64,000 nt of DNA from Rhodospirillales bacterium (GTDB taxonomy: Bacteria; Pseudomonadota; Alphaproteobacteria; Dongiales; Dongiaceae), in contig VFKA01000035.1 in NCBI GenBank assembly GCA_009885795.1, positions 1 to 64,000 on the forward strand, in the 5' to 3' direction. This document shows, one piece after another, positions 31,851-63,761 of the stretch (position 1 is the stretch's first letter; the number at the start of each line of letters is the position of its first letter). The notes under the pieces are model-generated. The model was given only the letters and a program-made list of their open reading frames with translations. It did not search any database and was not told the origin of the DNA. The position numbers and the translations under genes are program-made.

Positions 31851-32458
31851 GACGCGAGTACGCGGCGCGCGCGCAGAAAGTCGAGCAGCGGCAGCAAGGG
31901 CAGCCCGAGGATGGTGAAAAAATCGCCGTCGATTCGATGGAAGAGCTGGACGCCGAGCCCCTCCACCCGATAGGCGCCGACCGTTTCAGCCAGCCGCTCG
32001 CCGGCGGCCGCGACGTACCGGTCGAGAAAGTCGTCGCCGAACGGTCTCATGACCAGACGCGCGCGATCGACGTGGTGCCACAGACGCGACCCGTCCCGCA
32101 CGACCACGGCGGCGGACACCAGTTCATGCGCCCGGCCGCGAAGGGCGCGCAGATGATCGCGCGCCTCGGCTTCGGTTCCGGGTTTGTCGAACCAGCGCCC
32201 TTCGCAATCGAGAATCTGGTCGGCGCCGACGACCAGCGCCCCGGGGTGGCGCCGGCTGACGCTCCGCGCCTTCAATTCGGCCAGGCTTTCCGCGGCATCC
32301 CCCGCGCCGGCGCCCGCCGCGCGCAAGGCGCGTTTGGCTTCGCCCTCGTCGATGGAAGCGGGATCGCACGCAACCTCCACGCCGGCCGCGCGCAGCATGG
32401 CCGCTCGCGCCGAGCTGGCCGAGGCAAGAACAACGGCCTCTGGGGCTCCCTCAGTCAT
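31847..32458 (-). CDS. maf: Maf-family nucleoside triphosphate pyrophosphatase
   Basis: This 203-residue protein has VVLASASSARAAMLRAAGV, the substrate-binding KARSVSRRHPGALVVGADQIL, and KPGTEAEARDHLRALRGRAHELVSA. Maf proteins hydrolyse noncanonical nucleotides or dTTP/UTP and can affect septation. The 5' end overlaps ppsR by 8 bp. Confidence 0.93.
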   Translation of the reverse strand: MTEGAPEAVVLASASSARAAMLRAAGVEVACDPASIDEGEAKRALRAAGAGAGDAAESLAELKARSVSRRHPGALVVGADQILDCEGRWFDKPGTEAEARDHLRALRGRAHELVSAAVVVRDGSRLWHHVDRARLVMRPFGDDFLDRYVAAAGERLAETVGAYRVEGLGVQLFHRIDGDFFTILGLPLLPLLDFLRARRVLAS

Positions 32459-33287
32459 GCTCGGCAGCGGCGGGCTCTCCGGCGCGGTGCTTGTTGAAGA
32501 GCTGGATGATCGCGGCGGCGGTTTCCTCGATCGATCGGCGGCTGACGTCGATCATGGGCCAGCCGCGTTCGCCGCAGAGGCGCCGCGCGGCGGCGACTTC
32601 CTGGCGTACCGTTTCCGGATCGACATATTCCGTCCGTTCGTCCTGTGCCAACAGCCGCAGCCGGCTGCGCCGGATATGGATGAGCTGCGTCGGATCCTTG
32701 GTCAGGCCGACGACGAGCGGTCGCTTCACCGTGTCGAGCTCGGGCGGCAGCGGACAACCCGGTACCACCGGCACGTTGGCCGCCTTGATGCCGCGATTGG
32801 CGAGATAGATGCAGGTCGGAGTCTTGGACGTGCGCGACACGCCCACCAGAATCACGTCGGCCTGGTCGTAGTCGCGGCTCGACTGGCCATCGTCATGGGC
32901 AAGCGCGAAACTCATGGCGTCGATGCGGGCGAAATACTCGGCATCCATTTCGTGCTGCCGGCCGGGCTGGCCTTGGCTTTTCATGCCGAGATAGCTGCCC
33001 AAGGCCGAGATCACCGGGTCGAGCACGGCGATGCAGGGAACTTGCAGCCTTCGGCAGCCGTCTTGCAGCGTCGCGCGCAAGCCCTCGTTCACCAGCGTAA
33101 AGAGGACCACGCCGGGGGTGGACTCGATGCCGCGGAGCGCTTTTTCCATCTGCGCCGGCGTGCGTACCAGCGTCCAGGAATGTTCGACGGCCTCAACCCC
33201 CTCGAACTGGACGAGACAGGCCCGCGCGACGCTGTTGATCGTCTCGCCGGTCGCGTCGGACACGAGATGCAGATGGAACGCGTTCAT
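32451..33287 (-). CDS. ppsR: PEP synthase/PPDK regulatory protein (PPSR/DUF299, RP001 family)
   Basis: This 278-residue protein has FHLHLVSDATGETINSVARA, the nucleotide-binding GVSRTSKTPTCIYLANRGIKAANVP, and VVGLTKDPTQLIHIRRSRL. It is a bifunctional ADP-dependent kinase/phosphorylase acting on PEP synthase or pyruvate phosphate dikinase. This family is the RP001 homologue that sits next to the origin in Rickettsia and Caulobacter. First gene of the leftward operon, facing hemE across 378 bp. Confidence 0.94.
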   Translation of the reverse strand: MNAFHLHLVSDATGETINSVARACLVQFEGVEAVEHSWTLVRTPAQMEKALRGIESTPGVVLFTLVNEGLRATLQDGCRRLQVPCIAVLDPVISALGSYLGMKSQGQPGRQHEMDAEYFARIDAMSFALAHDDGQSSRDYDQADVILVGVSRTSKTPTCIYLANRGIKAANVPVVPGCPLPPELDTVKRPLVVGLTKDPTQLIHIRRSRLRLLAQDERTEYVDPETVRQEVAAARRLCGERGWPMIDVSRRSIEETAAAIIQLFNKHRAGEPAAAEHD

Positions 33288-33665
33288 GGGTCGGGGCCTT
33301 GTGCAAATACCGACAAGAACGGGGACAACCCGCCATTTTCGGACCGCCGGCCGATTCCATGCCCGGCGACCCTTCGCCGACCGTACCGATATCCAGAGGT
33401 GGGTCGAATCCGGCGCATCTTGTTAGACTCGTGAATAGAACGAAGGTCCGTCACTGTTATACACGACTCTCGACCGGCACGCGGAGACGAAGTTCCGCAG
33501 TACCATAGCGCCTCTGGAACGCCGATACTCCACAGGGACAGGCGGACGACGCACACGAGGGCGCTTCCCGTGGATATCGGACCCGCAACAATCGATCACC
33601 GATTCTCACAGCCTCCAACTAACTACAGCTATTTAGAATCTTAAGAATAGATTATAGGAAAGTAC
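33288..33665. other. Candidate chromosomal replication origin (oriC) between ppsR and hemE
   Basis: This 378-bp gap holds no gene. Near-matches to the DnaA box TTATNCACA are TTATACACG (33457-33465, one mismatch), TACTCCACA (33526-33534) and, reversed, CGTGGATAT (33569-33577). Four GANTC sites (33353, 33426, 33465, 33601) lie here, more than chance. The last 45 bp before hemE are strikingly AT-rich in this GC-rich window, as a DNA-unwinding element would be. The hemE-ori-RP001 order is established for Caulobacter and Rickettsia. The DnaA matches are weak, so this is mainly a context argument. The gap also has to hold both divergent promoters. Confidence 0.6.
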
Positions 33666-34727
33666 GTGGATTCGAGAGCTCGACAACCGAACTTGCGGGC
33701 CGATGGCGGACCGCTACTTGCCGCGTTACGCGGCCAAGGCTCGTTGCCGGCGCCGATCTGGTTGATGCGCCAGGCCGGGCGTTATCTGCCGGAGTATCGC
33801 GCGCTGCGCAAGGAGGCCGGGAGCTTCCTCGACCTCTGCTTAAACCCGGCATTGGCGGCCGAGGCGACATTGCAGCCGATCCGGCGATTTCACCTCGATG
33901 CGGCGATTATATTTTCCGACATTCTGTTGATCCCGAGGGCTCTGGGCCAGGCAGTCACGGTCGATGACGCGACCGGCCCGCGACTTCAGCCGTTCGGCGA
34001 AGCCTTCCCAACGATGACGCCGCCGGCGGAGATGGACGGGGACTCTCTCGACCCCGTGTACCGTGCGCTGAAACTCGTCAAGGCCAAGCTTCCGGACGGA
34101 GTTGGACTCATCGGGTTTGCCGGGGCGCCGTGGACGCTTGCCTGCTACATGATCGAAGGCGGTGGGAGCAAGGACTACGCCAAGGCACGCGCCTTCGCTT
34201 ATGGCAATCCGGACGCGTTCGAGCGCCTCATCGGCCGTCTTACGACGGCGGTGGCGGACCATTCGATCGCGCAAGTCGCGGCCGGCGCCAATGTCGTGCA
34301 GATATTCGATAGCTGGGCTGGGGTTCTGCCCGCGCCGGCGCTGCGGCGCTGGTCGGTGGAGCCGATTCGCGCGATCGCGCGCCGGGTGAAGGCGGCGGCC
34401 GGCGGCGTGCCGGTCATCGTTTTCCCGCGCGGCGCCGGGGTTCTCTACCGCGACTATCTGGATACGGCCGACGCCTTGAGCCTGGATACGGCGATACCGG
34501 TGGATTGGGCCGCCGCCGAGCTTCAGGGGAAGGTGGCGGTTCAGGGCAACCTCGATCCCGCGGCGCTGGTGGCCGGAGGCGAGACGATGCGGGCCGAGGC
34601 CCGGCGCATCCTCGGGGCGCTGGGGCGCGGGCGCTTTGTGTTCAATCTGGGTCATGGGGTCCTTCCCGAGACCCCCCCGGAACATGTGGCCGAGCTGGTC
34701 GAGCTGGTTCGGGCATGGCGGCCTTGA
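33666..34727 (+). CDS. hemE: Uroporphyrinogen decarboxylase
   Basis: This 353-residue protein has the signature PIWLMRQAGRYLPEYR and the catalytic Asp in AAIIFSDILLIPRALG. It also shows GFAGAPWTLACYMIEGGGSKDY, VQIFDSWAGVL and FNLGHGVLPETPPEHV. It decarboxylates uroporphyrinogen III to coproporphyrinogen III. GTG start with ribosome site AGGAAA 4 bp upstream. First of the rightward heme cluster. Confidence 0.96.
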   Translation: MDSRARQPNLRADGGPLLAALRGQGSLPAPIWLMRQAGRYLPEYRALRKEAGSFLDLCLNPALAAEATLQPIRRFHLDAAIIFSDILLIPRALGQAVTVDDATGPRLQPFGEAFPTMTPPAEMDGDSLDPVYRALKLVKAKLPDGVGLIGFAGAPWTLACYMIEGGGSKDYAKARAFAYGNPDAFERLIGRLTTAVADHSIAQVAAGANVVQIFDSWAGVLPAPALRRWSVEPIRAIARRVKAAAGGVPVIVFPRGAGVLYRDYLDTADALSLDTAIPVDWAAAELQGKVAVQGNLDPAALVAGGETMRAEARRILGALGRGRFVFNLGHGVLPETPPEHVAELVELVRAWRP

Positions 34728-36285: not shown

Positions 36286-36807
36286 ATGGCGATCGTCATC
36301 GGAAACGCCTCGGGCAACCGGCTGCGCGGCACCAGCACGGCCGACACCATTCTTGGCGAAGGCGGCGACGACCGGCTCGAAGGCCGTTCGGGCAACGATC
36401 TGCTGATAGGCGGTGACGGGCACGACAGGCTCGACGGCGATACCGGGGTCGATTCTCTTACCGGGAATGCAGGGCGTGACAAGTTCTACTTCGATGAGCC
36501 GAACGCTTCGGGTGTTGGCGCCGGCAACCGTGACGCGATCGCGGATTTCGAGGGCGCGGGCGCAACGGCCGGCGACGTCATCGACGTATCGGAGATCGAT
36601 GCGAATGTGGCTGTCCTCGGCGACCAGGCCTTCGTCTTCATCGGCACCGCCGCCTTCACCGCCGCGGGCCAGATCCGCGCCGAGCAGGTCGGCGCCGACA
36701 CCGTGTTGCAGGCCAATACGGCCGGCGTCAGCGGGGCCGAGTTCGAGATCGAATTGACCGGGATCGACGCGGCCGATCTCACCCCCTCCGACTTTCTATT
36801 CGTGTAA
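36286..36807 (+). CDS. Small RTX calcium-binding protein, putative type I secretion substrate
   Basis: This 173-residue protein has no signal peptide. Residues ~8-65 are tandem nonapeptide RTX repeats (GTSTADTILGEGGDDRLEG, GNDLLIGGDGHDRLDGD). The rest resembles the serralysin/peptidase M10 C-terminal domain (RDKFYFDEPNA, DAIADFEG, GDVIDVSEID) and ends DFLFV, a type I secretion tail. It has no enzyme domain of its own. It sits alone between hemJ and rho. Confidence 0.85.
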   Translation: MAIVIGNASGNRLRGTSTADTILGEGGDDRLEGRSGNDLLIGGDGHDRLDGDTGVDSLTGNAGRDKFYFDEPNASGVGAGNRDAIADFEGAGATAGDVIDVSEIDANVAVLGDQAFVFIGTAAFTAAGQIRAEQVGADTVLQANTAGVSGAEFEIELTGIDAADLTPSDFLFV

Positions 36808-44804: not shown

Positions 44805-46679
44805 ATGGCGCATTTCGATGTCGTTGTGATTGGCGGCGGGCACGCCGGGACCGAGGCCGCGGCCGCGGCCGCAAGGTTGGGCGCGCGCACCCTTCTCCTC
44901 ACCCAAAACCCGGCGACCGTGGGCGAAATGTCCTGCAATCCCGCGATCGGCGGGCTGGCAAAGGGCCATCTCGTTCGTGAGATCGACGCCTTGGACGGCA
45001 TCATGGGGCGGGCCGCGGACCGTGCCGGCATCCAGTTCCGCATGCTGAACCGCAGCAAGGGGCCCGCTGTCCGTGGGCCGCGCGCCCAGGCCGACCGAAA
45101 GCTCTACAGGGCCGCCGTTCAGGCGCTGCTGGCCGAACAGCCTGGCCTCGAGGTTCGCGCGGGGTCGGCCGAGGATATCGTTATCGGGCCGGACGGGCGG
45201 GTGACTGGCGTGGTCACGGGCGCCGGAGAAGTCGTTCCTTGTGGCGCCGTCGTGCTGACCACCGGCACGTTCCTTCGCGGGGTCATTCACATAGGCCGGG
45301 AGCAGGTTTCCGCCGGAAGGATCGGCGAAGCGCCATCGGTTGGGCTATCACGGACATTGGCCCGATTCGGCCTTCGCCTGGGACGCCTGAAGACCGGGAC
45401 GCCGCCACGGATCGATGGCCGGACGATCGACAAGGCGGCGCTGGAGGTTCAGCCCGGCGATGATCCGCCAGTGCCATTCTCGTTCCTGACCGGCCGGATC
45501 GAGACGCCGCAGACCGTTTGCTGGATAACCGGGACGACTCTGGAGACGCACGCGCTGATCCGGGAGAATCTTGGTCTTTCGCCCATGTATTCCGGGCAGA
45601 TCGAGTCGGTGGGGCCGCGTTACTGCCCATCCATCGAGGACAAGGTGGTTCGCTTTGCCGATCGGACCAGGCACCAGATCTTCCTCGAACCGGAGGGGCT
45701 CGACGACGACACGGTCTATCCCAACGGGATATCGACCTCCCTGCCGCGTGAGATCCAAGCGGCCATGCTCAGGACTATTCCAGGACTGGAGCGGGCGTTC
45801 ATGGTCCGCCCGGGCTATGCCATCGAGTACGATTTCGTGGACCCGCGGGAACTCCATCGCTGGCTGGAGGTCAAATCGGTTCCGGGGCTATTCCTGGCCG
45901 GCCAGATCAATGGCACGACGGGGTATGAGGAGGCCGCGGCGCAGGGCCTGATGGCCGGGCTGAACGCGGCGCTCAAAACGGCCGGATCCGGGCCTTTTGC
46001 GCTGGATCGGGCGGACGCCTATATCGGCGTCCTGATCGACGACCTGACCGCCCGGGGAACGAGCGAGCCCTACCGGATGTTCACCTCGCGGGCCGAGTAT
46101 CGCCTTAGCCTCCGGGCCGACAACGCCGACCAGCGCTTGACCGGCAAGGGGGTGGCCTTGGGCTGCGTCGGCATCCATCGCGAGTCGGTGTTCTCGGAAA
46201 AGCTCGTCGAGCTTCAGGCGGGGCGGGCCTTGATCGAGCGGTTGTCGGCGACCCCGAATGAGCTGGTCGCGGCGGGCCTGAAGATCAATCTCGACGGAAG
46301 CCGCCGGACGGCGAAGGCGTTGCTTGGCTATCCAGGGGTCGATATGGCGAAGCTCAGGATCATCTGGCCGGAGTTGGAATGTATCGGCGCCGCCTCGGCG
46401 GAACAGCTGGAGACGGAGGCGAAGTACGCGGGGTATCTCGATCGCCAGGAAGCGGACATCCGGTCGTATCGCCGCGACGATGGGCTTAAGCTCTCCCTGG
46501 ACCTAGATTATTCCTCAATATCAAGCCTTTCCAATGAGATAAGACAGAAACTTATCGAATGCCGGCCGCCAAGCATTGGGGCCGCAGCCAATATCCCCGG
46601 GATGACACCGGCGGCCGTCACGGCGCTTATCGCCCACACTCGCAAGGTTAAGGGGACCGGCCGCAGGGCTTTTGGTTGA
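44805..46679 (+). CDS. mnmG: tRNA uridine-5-carboxymethylaminomethyl modification enzyme MnmG
   Basis: This 624-residue FAD protein has the dinucleotide motif [81 protein letters not shown] and the tail [13 protein letters not shown]. It is the MnmE partner. ATG 44805 matches family length; the frame is open further upstream but without similarity. The stop region overlaps the rsmG start by 8 bp. Confidence 0.96.
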
Positions 46680-47364
46680 TCTGGCCTCCATGGGATCGAC
46701 CGATGTTTCACGTGAAACTCCGCCTCCCGGCGTAAGCGATCGGCTTCTGAGTATCCCGGCGGTTTCACGTGAAACAATCGTCCATCTTCGCGCGTATGTG
46801 AAAATTTTGAATAAATGGCAGAAGGCGATCAATCTTGTCTCCGATCGTAGTCTAGATGATGTCTGGAGCCGCCATATATTGGATTGCGCCCAACTCCGAT
46901 TTTACATCGCCGATACCGCGATTCATCTCATGGATATTGGCAGCGGCGCGGGATTGCCAGGCCTGATCCTGGCGATAATGGGTATCGACCGAGTAACCCT
47001 GGTCGAATCCGATGCCAGAAAGTCCGAGTTTCTCCGCGCCGCGACCAGGAATCTCGGTATTTCCGGCCGAGTCGAGGTCTTGACCAGCCGAGTCGAAGAC
47101 TTGTCCGGGTTTCAAGCAGACATCGTAACGGCCAGGGCGCTGGCCTCGGTAGAGCAGATTCTAGCCATTTCCGCCGGAATTCGAGGGCCTGGTACGAAAT
47201 ATCTTCTGCATAGGGGCGGGGCCGTTCCGGAGGAGTTGACCCAGGCGGGAAAAAAGTGGAGATTCTCGGTCGAGCGCTTTGCGAGCCTTACCGACGCGTC
47301 CGGATCCATACTTCGGTTAGGAAACATAGGCCTTGGAAATCACGCCCCTGACGACCCAAGTTAG
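46672..47364 (+). CDS. rsmG: 16S rRNA (guanine-527-N7)-methyltransferase RsmG, with parS sites in its 5' end
   Basis: This 230-residue (TTG start 46672) or 224-residue (ATG 46690) SAM methyltransferase has [42 protein letters not shown] and [13 protein letters not shown]. It methylates G527 of 16S rRNA. The first ~35 residues contain VSRET twice ([17 protein letters not shown]), the translation of two parS sequences. Upstream it overlaps mnmG; downstream it overlaps parA by 32 bp. Confidence 0.95.
46704..46719. promoter_or_regulatory. parS centromere site 1
   Basis: TGTTTCACGTGAAACT matches the conserved bacterial parS TGTTTCACGTGAAACA at 15 of 16 positions. It lies inside rsmG, upstream of parA and parB, where ParB is expected to load. 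Confidence 0.92.
46761..46776. promoter_or_regulatory. parS centromere site 2
   Basis: GGTTTCACGTGAAACA matches the parS consensus at 15 of 16 positions. It starts 57 bp after site 1 and is also inside the 5' end of rsmG. Confidence 0.92.
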
Positions 47365-48142
47365 CCGAGCCAAGATAATCGCCATTGCAAACCAGAAAGG
47401 CGGCGTCGGCAAGACCACGACCGCCATCAATCTGGCGACCGCCATGGCCGCCTGTGGAAAGTCCGTGCTGATCGTCGACATCGACCCGCAAGGCAACGCC
47501 AGCACCAGCCTCGGCATCGACAGGGCGATCCGCACTACGAGCTCTTACGAGGTGATCATCGACGGCGCGCCGATCGCCGACGCCATATTCCCGACGATCG
47601 TTCCGGGCATGGGGATCATAACGTCGTCGCGCGACCTGGCGGCCGCCGAGATCGAGCTCATCGACATGCCTCGGCGCGAGTACAGGCTGAAGGAAGCCCT
47701 CGAAGGCATAGCCCACGACTACGACTATGTTCTTATCGACTGCCCGCCATCCTTGAGCCTTCTCACCGTGAACGCCTTCGCGGCGGCCAATGCCGTCATG
47801 GTGCCGCTGCAATGCGAATTCTTGGCGCTGGAAGGCTTGAGCCATCTGGTGCGAACCATCGACCGGGTCCGGCAGAACTTCAATCCGACACTGGAAATAC
47901 AAGGTATTGTGCTAACCATGTTCGATCGACGCAATAACTTGTGTGACCTGGTGGCTGCCGATGTTCGCGGACATTTCGGTGCCAAGGTTTATGAGACGGT
48001 GATTCCACGGAACGTCAAGGTTTCGGAAGCGCCGTCGCACGGCAAGCCGGTTCTGCTCTATGACATGCGTTGCGCCGGATCCCAGGCCTATATCCACCTG
48101 GCCAGCGAAGTGCTGCGCCGCGAGAGCGTCCTGGCCGCGTAA
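47333..48142 (+). CDS. parA: Chromosome-partitioning ATPase ParA
   Basis: This 269-residue protein has the deviant Walker A KGGVGKTTTAINLATAMA, VLIVDIDPQGNASTSLG, VLIDCPPSLSLLTVNAFAAA and VPLQCEFLALEGLSHL. It powers origin segregation with ParB on parS. TTG start (47333) with AGGAAA about 10 bp upstream; it overlaps rsmG by 32 bp. parB follows after 12 bp. Confidence 0.96.
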   Translation: MEITPLTTQVSRAKIIAIANQKGGVGKTTTAINLATAMAACGKSVLIVDIDPQGNASTSLGIDRAIRTTSSYEVIIDGAPIADAIFPTIVPGMGIITSSRDLAAAEIELIDMPRREYRLKEALEGIAHDYDYVLIDCPPSLSLLTVNAFAAANAVMVPLQCEFLALEGLSHLVRTIDRVRQNFNPTLEIQGIVLTMFDRRNNLCDLVAADVRGHFGAKVYETVIPRNVKVSEAPSHGKPVLLYDMRCAGSQAYIHLASEVLRRESVLAA

Positions 48143-48154
48143 CGGGAGATTCGG

Positions 48155-49078
48155 GTGAACAGTGGAGTCCATTTGACCGGGAGACCTACCGTGACCGATG
48201 AATCCGGCAAGCGCAGCCTCGGTCGAGGATTGTCGGCTTTGCTTGGAGCCGAGCAAGAGGACTTTGCCGGCGGCGACCAGGCCCGCGCTTCGCGAACGGT
48301 CCCCGTCGAACTCATTCATCCGAGCCATCTTCAGCCGCGCCAGAGATTCGACGACGAGCCGCTGCAGGCGCTGGCCGATTCGATTCGCCAGAATGGCATC
48401 CTCCAGCCAATTCTGGTGCGCAGCCACCCGGCCAAGGCCGGAGCGTATGAAATCGTCGCGGGCGAGCGCCGCTGGCGGGCGGCGCAGCTGGCGAACATCC
48501 ACGAGATTCCGGTCCTGGTACGCGACATCGGCGATCGCGAGGCCCTGGAACTGGCGATTGTCGAGAATGTCCAGCGCCAGGATCTGTCGGCGCTCGAGGA
48601 AGCCGACGGCTACAAGCGGCTGATCGAGGAGTTTCGCTACAGCCAAGAGGATCTGGCGCAACGAATCGGCAAGAGCCGCAGCCATATCGCCAACACCATG
48701 CGTCTTCTGGCCCTGCCCGACGAGGTCAAGGGGCTGCTGGACAAGGGGGAGCTATCGCCAGGCCATGCGCGGGCCTTGCTTGGCGCCGGCGACCCGGCGG
48801 AGCTGGCGCGCCACGTCGTGGCCCGGGGCCTCAATGTCCGCCAGACCGAGAAGCTGGCCCGGGCCGCGCGCGATTCCGGCGGCTCGACACGGACGCCGGC
48901 GGCAAAGGATCCCGATACCGAGCGCCTGGAGCGCGACCTCTCGGCGCTTCTAGGCCTCAAGGTCGCGATAGATTTCCGCGGTCAGGGCGGGTCGATCACG
49001 ATCCATTATCGAAGCCTGGAACAGCTCGATGACATCCTGCGCCGGCTGAACCACACGCCGCAGCCGGGACCGAATTAA
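48155..49078 (+). CDS. parB: Chromosome-partitioning protein ParB (CTPase clamp)
   Basis: This 307-residue protein starts GTG with GGGAG 7 bp upstream. N-terminal SLGRGLSALLG (ParA-contacting), the CTP-binding GERRWRAAQLA and ENVQRQDLSALEEA, the HTH LAQRIGKSRSHIANTMRLLALP, and the C-terminal dimerisation part SITIHYRSLEQLDDILRRL are all present. It binds the parS sites 1.4 kb upstream. Its stop meets the opposing holA stop (4-bp overlap). Confidence 0.96.
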   Translation: MNSGVHLTGRPTVTDESGKRSLGRGLSALLGAEQEDFAGGDQARASRTVPVELIHPSHLQPRQRFDDEPLQALADSIRQNGILQPILVRSHPAKAGAYEIVAGERRWRAAQLANIHEIPVLVRDIGDREALELAIVENVQRQDLSALEEADGYKRLIEEFRYSQEDLAQRIGKSRSHIANTMRLLALPDEVKGLLDKGELSPGHARALLGAGDPAELARHVVARGLNVRQTEKLARAARDSGGSTRTPAAKDPDTERLERDLSALLGLKVAIDFRGQGGSITIHYRSLEQLDDILRRLNHTPQPGPN

Positions 49079-50618: not shown

Positions 50619-53223
50619 TGACCACCCTGTTCGGCACCACGATGACTTTGCGGGCCGCCTTGCCTGCCATGGCCCGGCGTACGTGCTCGTCCGCCAGGGC
50701 CGCCTCTTCCGCAACGCGCCGGTCGGCGTCGCGCGGCAACGCGATCGTTGCCCGCAGCTTACCATTAACTTGCACCGCCAGCGTAACAATCAAATCGTCG
50801 ACCAGGGCCGGGTCGGCTTCGGGCCAGGGCGCTAGCGCCAACAGCTCGCGATGGCCCAGCTGCTCCCATAGCTCCTCGGCCAGATGCGGCATCATGGGCG
50901 CGATCAGCCGGGTCAGGCTCTCCAAGGCTTCGCGCCGCGCCCAGGCGAAGCCCAGGCCAGAACCGGCGCCGGAATCCGCCAGCGTATTGGCGAACTCATA
51001 GAGACGCGCAACGGCGCGGTTGAAGTGGAATTTCTCGATGTCCTCGGTGACCCCGGCGATGGTCTTATGGGTGGCGCGGCGCAACGCCAAGGCGTCCGCG
51101 CCGAAATCGCCGGCCGTGACGGCGGCGCCACCGGATTCCGGCGCCGGCGCGCCCGTCACCAGCTTCCACAGCCGCTGGGTAAATCGGTAGGCGCCCTCGA
51201 CGCCGGCGCTTGCCCATTCCATGTCGCGCTCGGGCGGGCTGTCGGACAGCATGAACCAGCGCGCGGTGTCGGCGCCGTATTTGTCGATGATGGCGCCGGG
51301 ATCGACGACGTTCTTCTTCGATTTGCTCATCGATTCCAGGCGCCCGACCGTGACCTTGCCGCCGGTCGCGGCATGGACGGCCGAACCGTCGGGGCGCTTT
51401 AGGACGTCCTCCGGATAGAGCCACTTTCCGCCCGTGTCCTTGTAGGTTTCGTGGCAGACCATGCCCTGGGTAAAGAGGCCGCTGAACGGCTCTTCGGCCG
51501 AAAGATGCCCGCATGCGCGCATGGCGCGCGTGAAGAAGCGCGAATAGAGCAGGTGCAGGATCGCGTGTTCGATGCCGCCGACATACTGATCGACCGGCAG
51601 CCAGTAATCGACATCGGCGCGCGTCACCGGCTCGTCCGCCCGGGGCGAGCAGAAGCGGGCGAAGTACCAGGACGAATCGACGAAGGTGTCGCAGGTGTCG
51701 GTTTCGCGCCGCGCCGGGCGGCCGCACCCTGGGCAGGAAACGTGCTTCCAGTCCGGGTGGCGATCGAGCGGATTGCCCGGCTTGTCGAAAGCGGCGTCCT
51801 CGGGCAGGCGCACCGGCAGATCCCGCGCCGGCACCGGAACGATCCCGCAGGCGTCGCAATGAATCATCGGAATGGGGCAGCCCCAATAGCGTTGGCGCGA
51901 GATGCCCCAGTCGCGCAGGCGGTAGACGACGATGCCGCGCCCGATTCCGTCGCGTTCGAGACGGTCGATGATGGCGCGTTTGGCGCCGGCGACGTCGAGG
52001 CCGTCGAGAAACTCGGAATTGATCAGAACGCCGTCTTCGAGGAAGGCGGTGTCGGCCACCGCGAAATTCGACGGATCGGCGCCCGGGGGCGCCACCACCG
52101 GGAGGACCGGCAGCGCGTACTTTCGGGCGAAATCGAGATCGCGCTGATCGTGCGCCGGGCAGCCGAAGATGGCGCCGGTGCCGTACTCCATCAGGATGAA
52201 ATTCGCGACATAGACCGGCAGCGAGACACCCGGCCGGAACGGGTGCTCCGCCTTCAAGCCGGTGTCGAAGCCGCGTTTCTCGGCGGTTTCCAGCGCCGCC
52301 TCGGTGGTTCCAAGCGCGTGACATTCGGCGATGAAGGCGCCGAGGCCGGCGTTGTCGCGGGCCAGCTCCAATGCAAGCGGGTGCGCCGGCGACAGCGCGC
52401 AGAACGAGGCGCCGAAGATCGTGTCGGGACGGGTCGTGAAGACCTCGAGACGATCGCCGCGCCCGGCAAGCGCGAACGAGATGGTGGCGCCTTCCGAACG
52501 GCCGATCCAGTTTTCCTGCATCAGGCGCACGCGCTCGGGCCAGCGCTCGAGATCCTTGAGCGCGGCCAGAAGTTCCTCGGTATAGGCCGTGATCTTGAAG
52601 AACCACTGCGACAGCAGGCGCTTCTCGACGACCGCGCCGGAACGCCAGCCGCGGCCCTCGATGACCTGCTCGTTCGCCAGCACGGTGCTATCGACCGGAT
52701 CCCAATTGACCCAGGCTTCCTTGCGATAGACCAGGCCGGCCTCGAACAGGTCCAGGAATAATTTCTGCTGGTGCCGGTAATACTCCGGATGACAGGTGGC
52801 GATCTCGCGATCCCAGTCGAGCGACAGCCCCATGCGCTTCAATTCGGCGCGCATCGCCGCGATGTTGGCATAGGTCCATGCGGCGGGATGGATGCCCTGA
52901 TCGCGCGCGGCGTTTTCCGCCGGCAGCCCGAAGGCATCCCAGCCCATGGGGTGAAGCACGTTGAAGCCGCGCGCGCGCCGGTAGCGCGCGACCACGTCGC
53001 CCAGCGTGTAGTTGCGGACGTGGCCCATATGGATCCGCCCCGACGGATAGGGAAACATCTCGAGGACGTAGTACTTGGGGCGCGCGGGGTCGGCCTCGGC
53101 GGCGAAGCATCGCCGCTCCGCCCAGGCGGCCTGCCAACGCGGCTCGGCCTCGCGGAAATTGTAGCGCGCGTCCGGTCCGGTCGGGGCGCGCGGCGACGTG
53201 GCCTCGCTGGTTCGGCCGCTCAT
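50605..53223 (-). CDS. leuS: Leucyl-tRNA synthetase
   Basis: This 872-residue class I synthetase has the HIGH-type motif [15 protein letters not shown], the editing domain (~225-420) with [12 protein letters not shown] and [16 protein letters not shown], a zinc-like insert [30 protein letters not shown] and the KMSKS loop [12 protein letters not shown]. Complete length. It is followed by lptE and preceded 7 bp upstream by the DUF3576 gene. Confidence 0.97.
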
Positions 53224-53230
53224 CGGCCTG

Positions 53231-53851
53231 TTACTCGCCCAGCTGGGCGATCCTGAGTTGCCGGGCCCGGGTCAGAATGGCGTTCTCCAGATTGACCACG
53301 GTGTTGGCCGCCACGGTCGCATCGACCCAGCCGCCGGACGCATCCTTCTGTTGGCGGAAGACGGCCGCGCGCACCCCGTCGGCCCGCAACGCCCGGCCCA
53401 GAATGAACACGTTCACCTTGAACCGCTCCTCGGCGGTTTGCGGCGGCGAGTACCAGTCGGTGATGATGACGCCGCCGAAGGGATCGGCCGATACAAGGGG
53501 CATGAACGACACGGTGTCCAGGCTGGCGCGCCAGAGAAAGCTGTTGACCCCGATGCCGCCGCCGTCCTCCGGTTTCACGTCCTCGCCGCCGAAGACGAGG
53601 CCGCCTTCGCCGAAGACGGACTCCTGCCCTTCCTCCTCGTTGGTGATGGGCTTCGCCTGGCCCTTGCGCCGCTCCGAGGGATACTGCGATCCGGAGTCGC
53701 CGAACGAGCAGGCCGCCGCGCCGAAAGCGAATACAAGCGCGGCGCAAAGCAGCAGCCGGCCGATCCTCGATCGCCGATCCGGATGGTTCGCGCGCATGGC
53801 ATCGCCTGGCATGGCCGAAAACTCCGCAAAATCGTTGTGGAAGGCCACCAT
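53231..53851 (-). CDS. DUF3576 lipoprotein
   Basis: This 206-residue protein has a hydrophobic segment [18 protein letters not shown] with lipobox-like AAAC. DUF3576 features follow: [38 protein letters not shown] and a C-terminal [17 protein letters not shown]. The function of DUF3576 is unknown; its context with leuS, lptE and holA is conserved in alphaproteobacteria. ATG at 53851 has GGGAGG 8 bp upstream, though a shorter start at 53812 or 53797 would give a more usual signal peptide. Confidence 0.88.
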
Positions 53852-53945
53852 AAAGCAAACCTCCCGGATGCGGTCAAGCGATGGTCATGGCCCGAATCGG
53901 TGATATTCTCTTCCCTGGTCAACCCGCGCCATATTGAAATTGACT

Positions 53946-56000
53946 ATGGGTATGGAAGACGGAAGGCAATCGCTCGGCCCGGCGACGGCGGCCGATTTGG
54001 GCTCGCTCGCCGAGGCCGCGTTCCGCTATTTCCAATCGGGACGCCTGGCCGAGGCCGAACGGGTATGCCGCGACGCACTTGTACGCGCGCCGCGGGCCAT
54101 CCCGTTCCTGAATCTGCTGGGTCTTGTCGCCGGCCGGCGCGGCGATACCGAGGCGGCGGTGGAACTTCATGGGCGCTGCGTGGCGCTCGATCCCGACTCG
54201 GCCGAACTCCACGCCAATCTCGGCATGGCGCTTCGCAAGGCCGGGCGGGTCGAGGCCGCGGTCGAGAGCTACCGCCGCGCGCTGGCGCTGGCGCCCGTCC
54301 CCGCCCCTGGGCTCGCCGCCGTTCACAACAATCTCGGCAACGCGCTCCTGGAACTCGGCCGGCGAGCGGAAGCCATCGCTAGCTTGGAGCGCGCGGTCGC
54401 CCTGAAGCCGGATTTCGCCGATGCTCACTACAACCTCGGCAATGCCCTGATCGAAGCGGGGGAATGGAAGAAGGCGATCCTGGCGCTGCGGCTTGCAGCC
54501 GAATTGGCGCCGGCGAACGAGGGCGCCCACAACAGCCTTGGCATCGCCTTGCGCCGCCTGGGCCGTCCCGCCGATGCGGTCGAGAGCATTCGTAGGGCAC
54601 TAGCATTGCGGCCGGACATGGCGTCCGCTCACAACAATCTCGGCAATGCGTTGCGTCAGTTGGGGAGTCCGGCGGAGGCCGAGGCAAGCTACCGGCGGGC
54701 GATCGATTCGCGGCCCGATTTCGCGGAAGCGCACGTGAATCGGGGCCTCGCCCTGCTCGATCTGCGTCGCTCCGAGGAAGCGATTGCATGCTTCCACCGC
54801 GCGCTCGACCTCGATCCCGATTCGGCGGCGGCGCATTGTGGACTCGCCGGCGCCCAGACGAATCGCGGCGCCTTCGAAGGCGCGCGGTCCAGCTATCGGC
54901 GCGCCATCGCCATCGAACCGGGCCTTGTCGATGCCCATCTCGGAATCTCGGCGTTGGTGCGTTATTGTCCCGGCGACCCGGCGTTTGCGCAACTGGAGCG
55001 GGTGGTCGCCGGCGGCGCGCCCGCCGAGGACCGGACATCGGCGCATTTCGTCCTGGGCAAGGCCTATGCCGACATCGGCGACTGGCGTAGGTCGTTCGAG
55101 AGCTATCGCGCCGCGAACGCGTTTCGCCGACAAGCAGCGGGTGCCGCCGCCAAGGCCTATGACGCGGCATGGAATCGCCGCGTCCTCGATTTCTCGAGGA
55201 CGGTACTCACCCGCGATCACTTCGCCTCGCGCGCCGGCCTTGGACTCGACGATCCAAGGCCGGTCTTCATCGTCGGGTTTCCGCGCTCGGGCAAGACGCT
55301 TATCGAGCAGATCCTCTCCAGTCACCCAAGCGTGAGCCCGGGCGGCGAGACGCTTGCCCTCGAGGCCCTCGCCCGGGAGGTGGCCAAGGAATCGGGATCC
55401 GGCGCCCCATATCCCGAATGCCTGCCGGCGGTTTCCCCCGACTCCCTGGCGATGCTGGCCCAGCGTCTCCTGGCGACGCTCGCCGGAGGCGGGCGGTCGG
55501 GAGAGCGCATTATCGATACCTCGCCCGACAACGCCTGGCATCTGGGGTTGTTGGCGCTACTGTGTCCCAGGGCCAGGGTCATTCATTGCCGGCGCGACGC
55601 GCGCGACCTGGTACTCGCCTGCCATTTCAAGTTCTTCGAGGCGGGCCACGCTTACGCAACGGACCTCGGCCAATGCGCGCGGTTCCTGAGGCTTTACGAG
55701 TCGATGATGGAGCACTGGCGCGCGGTGCTTCCGCTAGAGTTCGTGGAAGTTCGCTACGAGGATCTGGTGACCGATCCCCGCGCCAGCGCGCGGCGCATCA
55801 TCGGGTTTCTCGACCTGCCCTGGAGCGAAACCTGTCTGCCCGACGCCGCACCCGATGCCAAGGAGCTGGGGGCAGCCGACAGTTTGCCGGTTCGCAGCCG
55901 CCTTTCAGCCGATTTCGTTGGCTTCTCGCGCCATTACGAAGCCTTCCTGGGGCCGCTGGACGACGCGTTGGCAAGGCCGGCACAGAATCTCCGGGGGTAA
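53946..56000 (+). CDS. TPR-repeat sulfotransferase
   Basis: This ~684-residue protein has an N-terminal array of about nine TPR units (~20-330; repeats like AHNNLGNALxxLGxxAEA). A linker is followed by a sulfotransferase domain from ~435: PAPS-binding PVFIVGFPRSGKTLIEQILSSHPSV, DTSPDNAWHLGLLALLCPRARVIHCRRDARDLVLAC (3'-phosphate loop) and VRYEDLVTDPRASARRIIGFL. It resembles bacterial tyrosine-sulfotransferase-like proteins. The start is uncertain (TTG 53934, TTG 53940, ATG 53946, ATG 53952). It is followed 94 bp downstream by a second sulfotransferase. Confidence 0.87.
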   Translation: MGMEDGRQSLGPATAADLGSLAEAAFRYFQSGRLAEAERVCRDALVRAPRAIPFLNLLGLVAGRRGDTEAAVELHGRCVALDPDSAELHANLGMALRKAGRVEAAVESYRRALALAPVPAPGLAAVHNNLGNALLELGRRAEAIASLERAVALKPDFADAHYNLGNALIEAGEWKKAILALRLAAELAPANEGAHNSLGIALRRLGRPADAVESIRRALALRPDMASAHNNLGNALRQLGSPAEAEASYRRAIDSRPDFAEAHVNRGLALLDLRRSEEAIACFHRALDLDPDSAAAHCGLAGAQTNRGAFEGARSSYRRAIAIEPGLVDAHLGISALVRYCPGDPAFAQLERVVAGGAPAEDRTSAHFVLGKAYADIGDWRRSFESYRAANAFRRQAAGAAAKAYDAAWNRRVLDFSRTVLTRDHFASRAGLGLDDPRPVFIVGFPRSGKTLIEQILSSHPSVSPGGETLALEALAREVAKESGSGAPYPECLPAVSPDSLAMLAQRLLATLAGGGRSGERIIDTSPDNAWHLGLLALLCPRARVIHCRRDARDLVLACHFKFFEAGHAYATDLGQCARFLRLYESMMEHWRAVLPLEFVEVRYEDLVTDPRASARRIIGFLDLPWSETCLPDAAPDAKELGAADSLPVRSRLSADFVGFSRHYEAFLGPLDDALARPAQNLRG

Positions 56001-56094
56001 GTCCGGGGTAGGCATGGCGTTTTTGCTTTCGCCTCGCGCTCGCTTCCGCTAATTAGCCGCCTTCATCATCACTTCAGCCCGCCGCCGGGAAGCC

Positions 56095-56949
56095 ATGGGA
56101 AAAATCGTCTGGCTCGCCTCATACCCGAAGTCCGGGAACACCTGGCTGCGAGCCTTCCTCCATAACCTGCTGCGCAACGTGGACGAGCCCTACGACATCA
56201 ACCGGCTTTCCGACTTCACGCTCAGCGATTCGCAGGCCGCCTGGTACCAGGCCTTCGATTCCCGCCCGATCGAGCAGTGGACCAAGGAAGAAGTGGCCGC
56301 GGCGCGGCCCCGCGTCCACGAAGCGATGACCAAGGCCTTTCCCGACTCGGTCTTCGTCAAGACCCACAATGCGCTGGTCGAGGACCGCGGCCATTCCATG
56401 ATCACCATGGAGCATACCGCCGGCGCCATCTATGTGATTCGCAATCCGCTCGATGTCGTCATCTCGCACAGCCACCACTACGCCCTCACCGTGGATCAGT
56501 CGATCTTTGTCCTCAACCGTCCCGACGTCGAGGGCGAGAACGAAGGCCGCTACGTTTACGAATGGCACGGATCCTGGTCCCGGCACGTGGCGAGCTGGAC
56601 CTCGATCCCGAATCCGTCGCTGCTCACGGTACGCTATGAGGACATGGGGGAGGATCCCCACGAGGCCTTCGGCCGAGTCGCCGCCTTTCTAAGGCTGAAT
56701 CCGTCGAGGGAGCGGCTGCACAAGGCCATAAGACTCAGTTCTTTCAAGCAGTTGCGTGAAATGGAGGAAAAGCACGGCTTCCGCGAGCGCACGGTGAAGA
56801 GCGACCGGTTCTTTCGCGCCGGGCGGGCCGGGCAATGGCGCGATACCCTGACGGCGGCTCAGGTCGACGCGGTCGTTGAGGCCAATCGGGAGATGATGTC
56901 CCGGTTCGGTTATCTGCCGGACCAGGAGAAGACGGCGATCAATGTCTAA
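56095..56949 (+). CDS. SULT-type sulfotransferase
   Basis: This 284-residue cytosolic sulfotransferase-like protein has IVWLASYPKSGNTWLRAFLHNLL (5'-phosphosulfate loop), FVKTHNA, AIYVIRNPLDVVISHSHHY (3'-phosphate motif), VRYEDMGEDPHEAFGRVAAFL and the C-terminal FFRAGRAGQWRDTLT, the KxxxGxxGxW-type PAPS motif. It belongs to the sulfotransferase_1 family; the acceptor is unknown. It probably shares a transcript with the TPR-sulfotransferase. Confidence 0.9.
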   Translation: MGKIVWLASYPKSGNTWLRAFLHNLLRNVDEPYDINRLSDFTLSDSQAAWYQAFDSRPIEQWTKEEVAAARPRVHEAMTKAFPDSVFVKTHNALVEDRGHSMITMEHTAGAIYVIRNPLDVVISHSHHYALTVDQSIFVLNRPDVEGENEGRYVYEWHGSWSRHVASWTSIPNPSLLTVRYEDMGEDPHEAFGRVAAFLRLNPSRERLHKAIRLSSFKQLREMEEKHGFRERTVKSDRFFRAGRAGQWRDTLTAAQVDAVVEANREMMSRFGYLPDQEKTAINV

Positions 56950-56972
56950 CTTATTGTATTTACAATTTAATA

Positions 56973-57044
56973 TGTCATTCCGGCGCAAGCCGGAATCCAT
57001 CGCGCCGCATCGCGATGGGCCCCGGCTTTCGCCGGGGCGACAGG
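56973..57044. repeat. 72-bp double-hairpin repeat, copy 1 (upstream of porin 2)
   Basis: It has two palindromes, ATTCCGGCgcaaGCCGGAAT and a CCCCGGC-loop-GCCGGGG, joined by CCATCG. The repeat recurs at 58615-58686 in the same orientation with about 65 of 72 positions identical. The type (TGTCATTCCGGCGAAAGCCGGAAT) is a common dispersed palindromic repeat of alphaproteobacteria. Confidence 0.9.
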
Positions 57045-57335
57045 GAGCTTGAAGGGAAAATCCCTCGTCGGGATGACAGATCTTAGTTGCATTTCGGCCA
57101 CAGATTTGCCGAAAAATCACAGGGATGGCGATAGTTGCTTGACCTGACCGTCAGGCCAAATAGGATTTGCCTCGCGTACCGGGCTTCGTGCCGAAGTTTG
57201 CTTTTCTCTAATCGACCCTTGGCTTGCCAAGGACTGTTGGGGGGGCGAGGGCGGCCGGCGGGCGCGGTGAATGGGGTGGCCGGGGGAATTTCGACATCGC
57301 CGGCCGGTGAACAAGGGTAAGAGGGAAAAACAACC
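57045..57335. other. Leader region of porin 2 (no gene seen)
   Basis: No supported gene. It holds the candidate promoter at 57139-57166, the palindrome CCTTGGCTTGCCAAGG at 57217-57232, a small AGGGAAAATCCCT hairpin near 57054, and a G-rich stretch near 57239-57270. AAGAGGGA lies 9 bp before the porin ATG as ribosome site. Confidence 0.5.
57139..57166 (+). promoter_or_regulatory. Candidate promoter with internal operator palindrome, porin 2
   Basis: TTGACC (57139-57144) and TAGGAT (57161-57166) are spaced by 16 bp. The perfect palindrome CCTGAC-C-GTCAGG (57143-57155) overlaps the -35 end and spacer, where a repressor would block polymerase. Inference from pattern only. Confidence 0.45.
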
Positions 57336-58553
57336 ATGAAGAATATTCTATATGGAACGACCGCCCTGGTCGCCGCGGGGGTGCTGGCTGGTCCCGCATT
57401 CGCGGCGGACGGGGTAAAGCTCGGCGTTGGCGGTTACTACCTTGGTGCCGCCGGCGGCGTGGTCAGCGAGGATTTCGGCGGGGATGCGTTCGTCGACGAA
57501 GACGATCTTCGCAGCCACGTATTCAAGCAGGACATCGAAATCCACTTCAAGGGCGAAACCGTCCTCGACAATGGCCTCACGGTCGGCGCGCGCGTCGAAC
57601 TGGAAGGCCAGAGCACGGGCGACTCCCGTCAAAAACCGTTCGACGGCACGGACCGTCGTGAAGACCAGATCGACGCCGCCTTCGCTTATCTGCGGGGCGG
57701 GTTCGGCGAAGTGCGGTTCGGCGATACCTCCGAAGCCGGGGCGCAGATGTGCTATCTGGTGCCGTCGGCGTCCAGCATGTTCGGCGCCGATTCGCCGTTC
57801 TTCAACTTCTCGAACGCAGGGACCGTCGGCTGGTCCGGAACGAACGGCACCTGCTACGGTCTCGAGGGCGCGGTCGGGCGGGGCAATGACAAGTCGACGA
57901 AGATCCTGTACTTCTCGCCGAACTTCGTCGGGTTCTCGTTCGCGGCGTCCTACACGCCGGACATGACCGAGGACAGCCGCAACACCACCTTCGGTGCCGG
58001 CACGCGTTTCGATAACAACTCGTCCGAGTCGTCGCAAAACTTCTCGGTCGCGGCGCAGTTTGCTCATGACTTCAACGGCTTCAACCTGGTCGTGGGCGGC
58101 GCCGGCAGCTGGGGCGATTGGGAAACCAGTCCTCCGGAAGGCGATGATCCGGCATGGTACAACGCGTACCTGAACCTCGCGTTCTCCGGTTTCACCATCG
58201 GCGGCGCGTTCAGCTACACGGATAACTACGTCTCCTACAGCGACGTCGACTACTATGTGTACGGCGCGGGCGTCACCTACAACTTCGACGCCTGGACGGT
58301 CGGAGTGGGGTGGACGCACGGTACTTACGAACTTACCGATACGACCGGCAGTCCTATCAATGGTGAAGACGAACAGGACATCATCCAGGCAACGGCGTCT
58401 TACGCGCTCGGGCCGGGAATCACCGTCGAGGCGATGGCCGGGTATGTCGATTACGATGACGGCACGACTTCGCAAGCTAACACCACCGGTTCGACGAAGC
58501 GTTCGGACTACGACGCGTTCGAACTCGGGATCGGCTTGGGCATTCGTTTCTAA
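57336..58553 (+). CDS. Outer-membrane porin, second paralogue
   Basis: This 405-residue protein has a signal peptide MKNILYGTTALVAAGVLAGPAFA and a beta-barrel ending in Phe (GLGIRF). It shares with the 7339 porin the blocks FKQDIEIxFxxxTVLDNGLTVGA, LRGGFGEVRFGD and QMCYLVPSASxMFGADSPxFNFSNAG, plus both loop cysteines. The encoding gene has its own promoter region, a strong terminator, and direct repeats on both sides, so it behaves as an isolated monocistronic unit. Confidence 0.92.
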   Translation: MKNILYGTTALVAAGVLAGPAFAADGVKLGVGGYYLGAAGGVVSEDFGGDAFVDEDDLRSHVFKQDIEIHFKGETVLDNGLTVGARVELEGQSTGDSRQKPFDGTDRREDQIDAAFAYLRGGFGEVRFGDTSEAGAQMCYLVPSASSMFGADSPFFNFSNAGTVGWSGTNGTCYGLEGAVGRGNDKSTKILYFSPNFVGFSFAASYTPDMTEDSRNTTFGAGTRFDNNSSESSQNFSVAAQFAHDFNGFNLVVGGAGSWGDWETSPPEGDDPAWYNAYLNLAFSGFTIGGAFSYTDNYVSYSDVDYYVYGAGVTYNFDAWTVGVGWTHGTYELTDTTGSPINGEDEQDIIQATASYALGPGITVEAMAGYVDYDDGTTSQANTTGSTKRSDYDAFELGIGLGIRF

Positions 58554-58576
58554 GCTTAAGCCTATCGATGCTTATG

Positions 58577-58610
58577 GGGGAGGGCGTTCCGCGCCCTCCC
58601 CTTTTTCTTT
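58577..58610 (+). terminator. Rho-independent terminator of porin 2
   Basis: GGGGAGGGCG (58577-58586) pairs perfectly with CGCCCTCCCC (58592-58601) around a 5-nt loop, followed by TTTTTCTTT. The clearest intrinsic terminator in the window, 24 bp after the porin stop. Confidence 0.93.
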
Positions 58611-58614
58611 GTGT

Positions 58615-58686
58615 TGTCATTCCGGCGAAAGCCGGAATCCATCGAGCCGCGTCGCCATGGGTCCCGGCGTTCGCCGGGACGACAGG
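58615..58686. repeat. 72-bp double-hairpin repeat, copy 2 (downstream of porin 2)
   Basis: Same orientation as the copy at 56973-57044. It starts 5 bp after the terminator T-run and ends 15 bp before the yggS-like start codon. Confidence 0.9.
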
Positions 58687-58701
58687 TTTGTTTCCTTAAC
58701 G

Positions 58702-59373
58702 ATGACGAATCTTAACACGCTCCGCGCGAGCCTCGATGCCATACACGCCCGCATCGCCAAGGCCGCCCGCGATTCAGGCCGCAAGGCGGATGCGGCCGAA
58801 TTGGTCGCGGTGACGAAATCCCAACCGCCGGAAGCAATCCGCGAGGCCCTGGCCGCCGGCCAGTGCCGGTTCGGCGAGAACCGGGTCGGCGAGGCCAAGC
58901 TGAAATGGAATTTGTTGAAACCCGAATTTCCCGATGCCACTTTGCATCTCATCGGCCCGCTCCAGACCAACAAGGTGCCGGATGCCGTGGCACTTTTCGA
59001 CGTCATCGAAACCGTCGACCGCGATCGACTCGCGCGCGCCCTGGCCTCCGAGATGGATCGTAGCGGCCGCCGGCCCGATTGTCTGGTCCAGGTGAATACC
59101 GGCGAGGAGCCGCAAAAAGGCGGCGTCTTACCCGGCGATGCGGAAGGGCTGGTCCGCCTTTGCCGCGACCTTGGGCTGCCGCTGCGGGGCCTCATGTGCA
59201 TCCCGCCCGTGGGCGAACCGCCCGCCCCTCACTTCGCGCTGTTGGCGGAAATGGCGCGGCGCCACGGTCTCGGCTGGCTCAGCATGGGAATGAGCGGCGA
59301 TTTCGAAACCGCCATCGCGCTGGGCGCCACCCATGTCCGCATTGGCACGGCGATCTTCGGTCGCCGCGCCTGA
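58702..59373 (+). CDS. YggS/PROSC-family pyridoxal phosphate homeostasis protein
   Basis: This 223-residue alanine-racemase-fold protein has the PLP lysine in LVAVTKSQPPEAIREAL, FGENRVGEAKLKW, LHLIGPLQTNK, VQVNTGEEPQKGGVLP, LMCIPP and LSMGMSGDFETAIALGATHVRIGTAIFGRR. It binds PLP and helps balance free PLP and amino-acid pools. ATG 58702 is chosen for family length. The 72-bp repeat ends just upstream, leaving little room for a promoter. Confidence 0.94.
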   Translation: MTNLNTLRASLDAIHARIAKAARDSGRKADAAELVAVTKSQPPEAIREALAAGQCRFGENRVGEAKLKWNLLKPEFPDATLHLIGPLQTNKVPDAVALFDVIETVDRDRLARALASEMDRSGRRPDCLVQVNTGEEPQKGGVLPGDAEGLVRLCRDLGLPLRGLMCIPPVGEPPAPHFALLAEMARRHGLGWLSMGMSGDFETAIALGATHVRIGTAIFGRRA

Positions 59374-59404
59374 CCATCCGACTCGGCTTCGGAGCCCGCC
59401 CGCG

Positions 59405-60343
59405 CTACATGCTTTGGCGTAACAGAATCTCGATCGCGGCCTCGTCCAACTGGACGGCCACATTCGGGTCCGGCGGCACTTCGGTGGAGGCGCCCGACAT
59501 GGTGCCGTACTTGGCCAGCCCATCGGCCATCCGCAGGGCAATAGCGGCGGAATCATCCGCCGGAATCGCCGCGCGCGGCGTGGCGACACCGTCGAATAGC
59601 GACAGGCCGGATCCAACGGCTCCGGCCGGTGGCAGGCGGAACTCCGTGGGGCGGTTGTTTAGCGGGATCCCGCCGGCGGCCGGCTCGAACGCAGCCGCCG
59701 CCTCGGGCGTCACCGCTGCCATGACTGTCGCTTCCGGCTCGCCGTCGCCCAGAACCGATGCGACGACGGCGTCCGCCATGTTCTCTCCGCCATTGGCTTC
59801 GGTGACGGCGGCGCCGATAGCCCCGGCGATGAGGCCGATGGGCCCGCCCAGCAGGCCCGCGCCGATGATCGCCGAGCCGGGCGAGATCGTATCGCCGCTG
59901 GCCCAGCGATAGAGCGAACCGATCAGCGGGATATGATGCAACGGATTGATCATGTCGATGAAATCGTCGAAGGTGAAACCGTCGGCGCCGAAGTACTGGT
60001 TGTCGCCCTTCGTCGCCGGATTGACGTGCCCCGTGGCGACGAGATGGCCGCGCTCGCGCCGGTCGATATGGTTCCAGTCCGGCTCCGCCGCCGCTGCCCC
60101 AGGCGTTGCCGGCGAAGGCGCCATCCCCATCGCTGCCGCCGGCACGGCGGCGATCGCGACGGGGGGCACCGCCAAATTGGCGCTCGGCGGGGGCGCGGCC
60201 GCGGTTTCCCCGGCCCGCGATTGGCCCGCCAGCATGGCATAGAAGCTCGCCGGATCGGTCGGCCGACTGGCTGGCGCCGCCGCCGGACGCATCATCGGCT
60301 CCGGCATGAAAGCCTGTTGTATCGAGGGGAAATCGCGCGCCAT
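59405..60343 (-). CDS. Uncharacterised alphaproteobacterial protein with glycine-zipper-like segment
   Basis: I do not recognise a named family for this 312-residue protein. Residues ~20-95 are Ala/Pro-rich and low complexity. At ~130-185 comes an ordered part: DGFTFDDFIDMINPLHHIPLIGSLYRWASGD, then GSAIIGAGLLGGPIGLIAGAIGAAV, a glycine-rich hydrophobic stretch that could insert in a membrane. The C-terminal third is again Ala/Pro-rich with helices RMADGLAKY and LDEAAIEILLRQSM. The start at 60343 follows GGGAG; there is no signal peptide. The pattern resembles hypothetical proteins I recall from related genomes. Confidence 0.75.
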   Translation of the reverse strand: MARDFPSIQQAFMPEPMMRPAAAPASRPTDPASFYAMLAGQSRAGETAAAPPPSANLAVPPVAIAAVPAAAMGMAPSPATPGAAAAEPDWNHIDRRERGHLVATGHVNPATKGDNQYFGADGFTFDDFIDMINPLHHIPLIGSLYRWASGDTISPGSAIIGAGLLGGPIGLIAGAIGAAVTEANGGENMADAVVASVLGDGEPEATVMAAVTPEAAAAFEPAAGGIPLNNRPTEFRLPPAGAVGSGLSLFDGVATPRAAIPADDSAAIALRMADGLAKYGTMSGASTEVPPDPNVAVQLDEAAIEILLRQSM

Positions 60344-60469
60344 GAATGCTCCCGGGGGCCTGATTTCCAATGGCCTGCAATAACGGGGCCAAAACTAACC
60401 GGCGGACTCTTTACGATTCATAACCGCGAGAGAGTCGGCAGAAATATCCAGCCGGCAATTCCTGCCCGA

Positions 60470-61645: not shown

Positions 61646-61775
61646 CGTCGCGCCTTACGCCCCGACCGGGGGTGGAGTCAAGGCCGGGGCGGTAGGCCGC
61701 TCCGCGCAACCGCCCGCCTTGCCGGCGCGTAATAATTGAAGATAATGATCGCCCGAGCGAGATCGAGGACGAGGG

Positions 61776-63682: not shown

Positions 63683-63761
63683 GTTCGGTACCGCCGGTTT
63701 CGCCCGCCCGATGACGATGTTATAAAGACTCTTGGGGCGGAGATAAGAGCGGGATCGAAGG

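Follow-up and report, generated by a model that had tools for sequence, protein, structure and literature searches.

The 378-bp intergenic gap between the divergent genes ppsR and hemE is very probably the chromosomal origin of replication, oriC, of the positional type known from Caulobacter and Rickettsia, as judged from sequence comparison. The first-pass annotation had put this gap forward as a candidate origin, a proposal now supported by the enrichment of DnaA boxes in homologous gaps, by the homology of the gap ends, by a GC-skew switch in relative G025 and by parS sites 13 kb away. The origin type is already known; the present case is unusual mainly in having only weak DnaA sites. The window, that is, the whole 64-kb stretch of DNA analysed here, is the first part of a 141,872-bp contig (C82) from an assembly of 3.46 Mb in 103 contigs. 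The locus is organized as follows:

33288–33665, unstranded: putative oriC, the gap between divergent ppsR and hemE, 56% GC
32451–33287, minus strand: ppsR (COG1806), left flank, PpsR match NF003742, 5' end at 33287
33666–34727, plus strand: hemE, right flank, HemE match TIGR01464, GTG start at 33666
47333–49078, plus strand: parA-parB, ParA-like and ParB matches

Flanking genes and homologous gaps in relatives

The PpsR match on the minus strand and the HemE match on the plus strand, 378 bp apart, confirm the junction, and these flanks match those of the published origins of Caulobacter and Rickettsia (PMC1914354), as had been claimed. The wider neighborhood is also as annotated. Maf-like, AroE, CoaE, DnaQ-type exonuclease, SecB, Tim44, MltA, Rho, MnmE, MnmG, RsmG, ParA-like and ParB proteins were all found with NCBIfam and Pfam models, and the heme genes correspond to a ferrochelatase and a UPF0093/HemJ protein. 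A small ORF at 36286–36807 of the window contains GGDGHDRL-type repeats and, from its translation, resembles a calcium-binding RTX repeat protein.

Divergent ppsR and hemE are adjacent, with a gap of about 300–860 bp, in nearly all loci examined; the exceptions are L016, in which no hemE was found close to the end of the contig, and genome G008, which carries an inserted gene. PpsR identity reaches 68% in named records (Kiloniellaceae and other Rhodospirillales-like Alphaproteobacteria) and 71–77% in the closest genomes. An unbiased k-mer count, made with no prior motif on 54 ppsR-hemE gaps (the window's included) and compared with dinucleotide shuffles, returned the DnaA box as the top enriched word. 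TTATCCACA is found in 19 of the 54 gaps (0.2 expected), TTATCCAC in 28 (0.6 expected), TTATCCCC in 35 (1.3 expected) and TCCACAGG in 25 (0.65 expected). With at most one mismatch allowed, 122 box sites are observed where 4.5 are expected, and 46 of the 54 gaps have at least one. In addition, pairs of CTA repeats on the hemE side occur 16 times in this set (1.2 expected), and 5 times on the other strand (0.6 expected). We read the 54 gaps as putative origins of one homologous kind, within which the window's gap falls in a subgroup poor in canonical boxes.

Local alignment of the window's gap to those of five near relatives, evaluated with 1000 shuffles, delineated two conserved blocks:

33306–33371, unstranded: left conserved block, summed alignment score 93 versus 47.7 ± 4.4 in shuffles (0/1000)
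33588–33660, plus strand: right conserved block, AATC..CC-N-CACAGCC-TCCA-CTA and then AT-rich DNA, score 100 versus 45.2 ± 5.1 (0/1000)

Both blocks stand about 10 standard deviations above the shuffles, and the middle of the gap is not conserved (p = 0.23). The left block contains CGGGGACAA (that is, TTGTCCCCG), which lines up with CGGGGAYAA in each of the five relatives. In G008, an inserted ORF resembling an MFS transporter, judged by eye, separates ppsR from the left block (L091, C1 at about 5.647–5.648 Mb), and both blocks still adjoin hemE. Therefore, the left block is probably not simply the ppsR promoter.

Weak DnaA boxes and other elements of the gap

The annotation had described near-DnaA boxes without a perfect one, and both statements hold. 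No site in the gap lies within 0 or 1 mismatch of TTATCCACA, and no perfect copy exists anywhere in the 3.46-Mb assembly; four sites in the gap are at two mismatches, where dinucleotide shuffles give 0.72 (p = 0.0055). Likewise, the strict DnaA consensus TTATNCACA, present in 19 of the 54 homologous gaps, does not occur in this one. The candidate sites are:

33320–33328, minus strand: DnaA box variant TTGTCCCCG, with TTRTCCCCG at the aligned position in 5/5 nearest relatives
33389–33397, plus strand: weak DnaA-like box ATATCCAGA, two mismatches
33430–33438, minus strand: weak DnaA-like box CTATTCACG, profile match
33457–33465, plus strand: weak DnaA-like box TTATACACG, two mismatches
33526–33534, plus strand: weak DnaA-like box TACTCCACA, two mismatches
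33569–33577, minus strand: weak DnaA-like box ATATCCACG, two mismatches

A profile scan for box clusters over 240 kb of the genome's own sequence did not single out the gap, equally dense weak clusters being present elsewhere.

Perfect boxes are scarce in this genome and in four relatives. The assembly holds none, against 8 copies of a reversed-pattern control, and G001, G002, G004 and G008 hold 1, 5, 6 and 8 copies of TTATCCACA against 8, 14, 15 and 15 of the reversed pattern. The window's genome is also short of boxes with no more than one mismatch (142 versus 247 for the reversed pattern). A dnaA gene is present on a different contig (rpsT-dnaA region, contig C50), and the C-terminal signature of its product reads GRDHTTVMHA, which we take to be a canonical-looking DNA-binding signature. 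On this assumption, a changed DnaA specificity was rejected as the cause of the missing boxes. As a tentative proposal, in the window's genome and in G001, G002, G004 and G008 the origin might run mostly or wholly on weak TTRTCCCCG-type boxes, perfect TTATCCACA being depleted genome-wide and absent from the origin. If true, the origin would be adjusted to bind DnaA with low affinity and would lack the heavy control by CtrA that Caulobacter uses. In Caulobacter, the DnaA sites of the origin are weak, and making them stronger can lower replication (PMC4468827); a weak-site origin is therefore plausible here.

Further elements were located in the gap:

33587–33686, unstranded: AT-rich stretch of 39% GC, candidate DNA unwinding element, extending into the hemE start
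33353–33640, unstranded: six GANTC sites, candidate CcrM targets, at 33353, 33406, 33426, 33465, 33601 and 33636
33619–33631, plus strand: DnaA-trio-like CTA repeats CTAACTACAGCTA, with CTA at 33619, 33623 and 33629, weak alone
33641–33655, plus strand: CtrA-like TTAA-N7-TTAT, one mismatch in the A's

No other 100 bp of the window is as low in GC as the AT-rich stretch that the annotation had noticed before hemE (33587–33686, 39% versus 66%), and the gap as a whole is more AT-rich than average (56% GC versus 66% for the window). Over 240 kb, the gap ranks within the lowest three sites for duplex stability; it is not unique, several others melting as easily. The several GANTC sites claimed amount to six, where 2.0 are expected; this number was reached in 2 of 200 shuffles. 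The genome encodes a RAMA-domain (CcrM-like) protein and a GcrA-like protein, so that control by GANTC methylation is plausible. The CTA repeats recall the DnaA-trio of the basal origin unwinding system (a box, a short spacer and repeats of consensus 3'-GAT-5', PMC8287927), but are imperfect, and a CTA-repeat pair arises in 9 of 200 shuffles. As for the CtrA motif TTAA-N7-TTAA, the gap has one imperfect site (0.05 expected) and no perfect one. Control of this origin by CtrA is doubtful, because the site is single and imperfect and none was seen in the aligned nearest relatives. CtrA sites are also missing from some Wolbachia and Ehrlichia origins of the hemE type (PMC1914354). The IHF site WATCAN5WTR, present in 15 of the 54 homologous gaps, does not occur in this gap; it was counted as a trait of the Caulobacter, Rickettsia and Wolbachia examples and not of the position type itself.

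GC skew, parS sites and competing explanations

The annotation had expected the GC skew to switch sign at the gap, and had named a minimum elsewhere, beside dnaA or near parAB, as the contrary outcome. In G025, a complete and strongly skewed genome of the same class, the strand-corrected GC3 skew is mostly negative on the ppsR side (about -0.05) and reaches +0.25 over the 20 kb next to the gap on the hemE side, where it remains above +0.12. As origin position in this genome, dnaA loses 41 log-likelihood units, parS 32 and the gap 5.5. The best change-point lies about 31 kb from the gap; for the raw cumulative minimum, the distance is about 11 kb. The expected switch was found within about 30 kb of the gap in this relative, and at neither dnaA nor parS. 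In G008, a complete 5.89-Mb genome of the same family with weak skew, samples between 0.9 and 2.65 Mb gave positive values and those between 2.95 and 5.0 Mb negative ones. The skew turns at about 2.8 Mb, and the origin is therefore expected near 5.75 Mb, midway between the gap (5.65 Mb) and dnaA (0/5.89), which it does not separate. The best change-point is 80–145 kb from the gap in G008 and in G030, the latter too weakly skewed for a decision.

On the window's own 142-kb contig, the expected switch was not borne out. Over the 20 kb immediately right of the gap, the strand-corrected skew has the expected sign (+0.062), but from +20 to +108 kb it is -0.03 to -0.065, opposite to the leading-strand expectation, and the replichore coefficient for an origin at the gap is -0.028 ± 0.010, of the wrong sign. 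Negative GC3 skew from about 20 kb on the hemE side is observed in three genomes of the family: in C82 at about 53–141 kb (53000–64000 of the window and beyond), in G002 (C31) and in G008. Since G002 and G008 are also negative from +20 kb, this looks like a conserved regional feature and not the noise of one assembly. Separately, GGGCAGGG is the most strand-biased 8-mer in the sampled stretches of G008 (L063–L079), with a 27:3 distribution on the inferred leading strand, and is KOPS-like. It occurs 4 times forward and 2 times reverse on C82, too sparsely for origin placement; in G056, its forward-rich zone starts somewhere in the interval 469–684 kb, which is compatible with ppsR-hemE at 655 kb and does not separate it from dnaA at 693 kb.

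Exact GTTTCACGTGAAAC occurs only twice in the window's genome, at 46705 and 46762, 13 kb from the gap:

46704–46719, unstranded: parS 1, in the rsmG 5' coding region
46761–46776, unstranded: parS 2, in the rsmG 5' coding region

Both sites belong to the 5' part of the rsmG coding sequence (46672–46780 of the window), in a segment that encodes the repeated peptide VSRET. In eight relatives (G002, G004, G008, G011, G025, G030, G044 and G054), parS is found about 11–19 kb from ppsR.

Replication could instead start at dnaA, as in many bacteria, the gap being only a conserved divergent promoter region. The records of complete G004, G008 and G025 open with dnaA, even though such numbering is custom, and the skew minimum of G008 falls midway. 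However, the rpsT-dnaA region of the window's genome has just two weak boxes, of two mismatches each, ppsR-hemE gaps contain DnaA boxes in massive excess and parS adjoins ppsR-hemE, not dnaA; together with the G025 likelihoods, this makes an origin at dnaA very unlikely. An ordinary bidirectional ppsR/hemE promoter, with the AT-rich end as the hemE promoter and box-like words arising by chance, is extremely unlikely. Divergent genes do require promoters, every box in this gap is at least two positions off consensus, and no Rfam RNA family was found at the gap. On the other hand, both gap ends are homologous to a gap set rich in DnaA boxes, the left block of G008 is split from ppsR by the inserted gene, and GANTC and box enrichment and the G025 skew switch speak against a promoter alone.

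We also give hardly any weight to a decayed ancestral origin, with replication now starting elsewhere nearby, for example near parAB at 47 kb. The missing strong box, the unconserved middle and the wrong-sign skew on the right side in this genome, G002 and G008 would agree with decay, as would the region at 47.4 kb, which likewise has 4 weak boxes per 400 bp. Yet that cluster lies within the parA coding sequence, and both end blocks of the gap remain conserved. Moreover, near-perfect boxes are likewise few or absent in the nearest relatives, so that this looks like a stable state and not fresh decay.

Proposed initiation and comparison with known origins

For the ppsR-hemE gap as oriC, we infer DnaA binding, melting, the order of assembly and methylation control as follows. 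DnaA would load on weak boxes across about 260 bp, from TTGTCCCCG near ppsR to the box-like CACAGCC-TCCA by hemE, and would extend from this hemE-side motif onto the CTA repeats (33619–33631). Melting would then occur in the AT-rich DNA that immediately precedes the start of hemE, and the helicase would be loaded there. The gap ends (the left box on one side, the right box and AT-rich DNA on the other) are conserved, and the middle drifts. GANTC methylation probably ties the firing of the origin to the cell cycle, and the new origins would be segregated by ParB at the parS sites 13 kb away.

The hemE-type origin would thereby be extended, with comparative support, to an unstudied alphaproteobacterial family; our literature search yielded no publication on an origin of this kind in Rhodospirillales. 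Such an origin could be located by homology of the gap ends even without a recognisable DnaA box, where consensus-box searches would overlook it, and the box variants are concrete candidate sites for low-affinity initiation.

In Caulobacter crescentus, Cori lies between hemE and CC_0001 (COG1806), spans 404 bp and is more AT-rich than the genome (PMC1914354). The present gap has the same flanking genes, a similar size, an AT content above that of the genome and weak DnaA sites, and CcrM-like and GcrA-like proteins are encoded here too. Unlike Cori, it has no CtrA site cluster (one imperfect TTAA-N7-TTAT) and no IHF match, and its box variants are of the TTRTCCCCG form, not the T-to-G G-box of Caulobacter. 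The Rickettsia prowazekii origin, with hemE/RP001 flanks and 384 bp (PMC1914354), shares flanking genes and size with the gap but is 82.6% AT, versus 44% here. Although its own box is degenerate and its repeats imperfect, the gap resembles the basal unwinding system (PMC8287927) in its order: a box-like motif, then CTA repeats, then AT-rich DNA.
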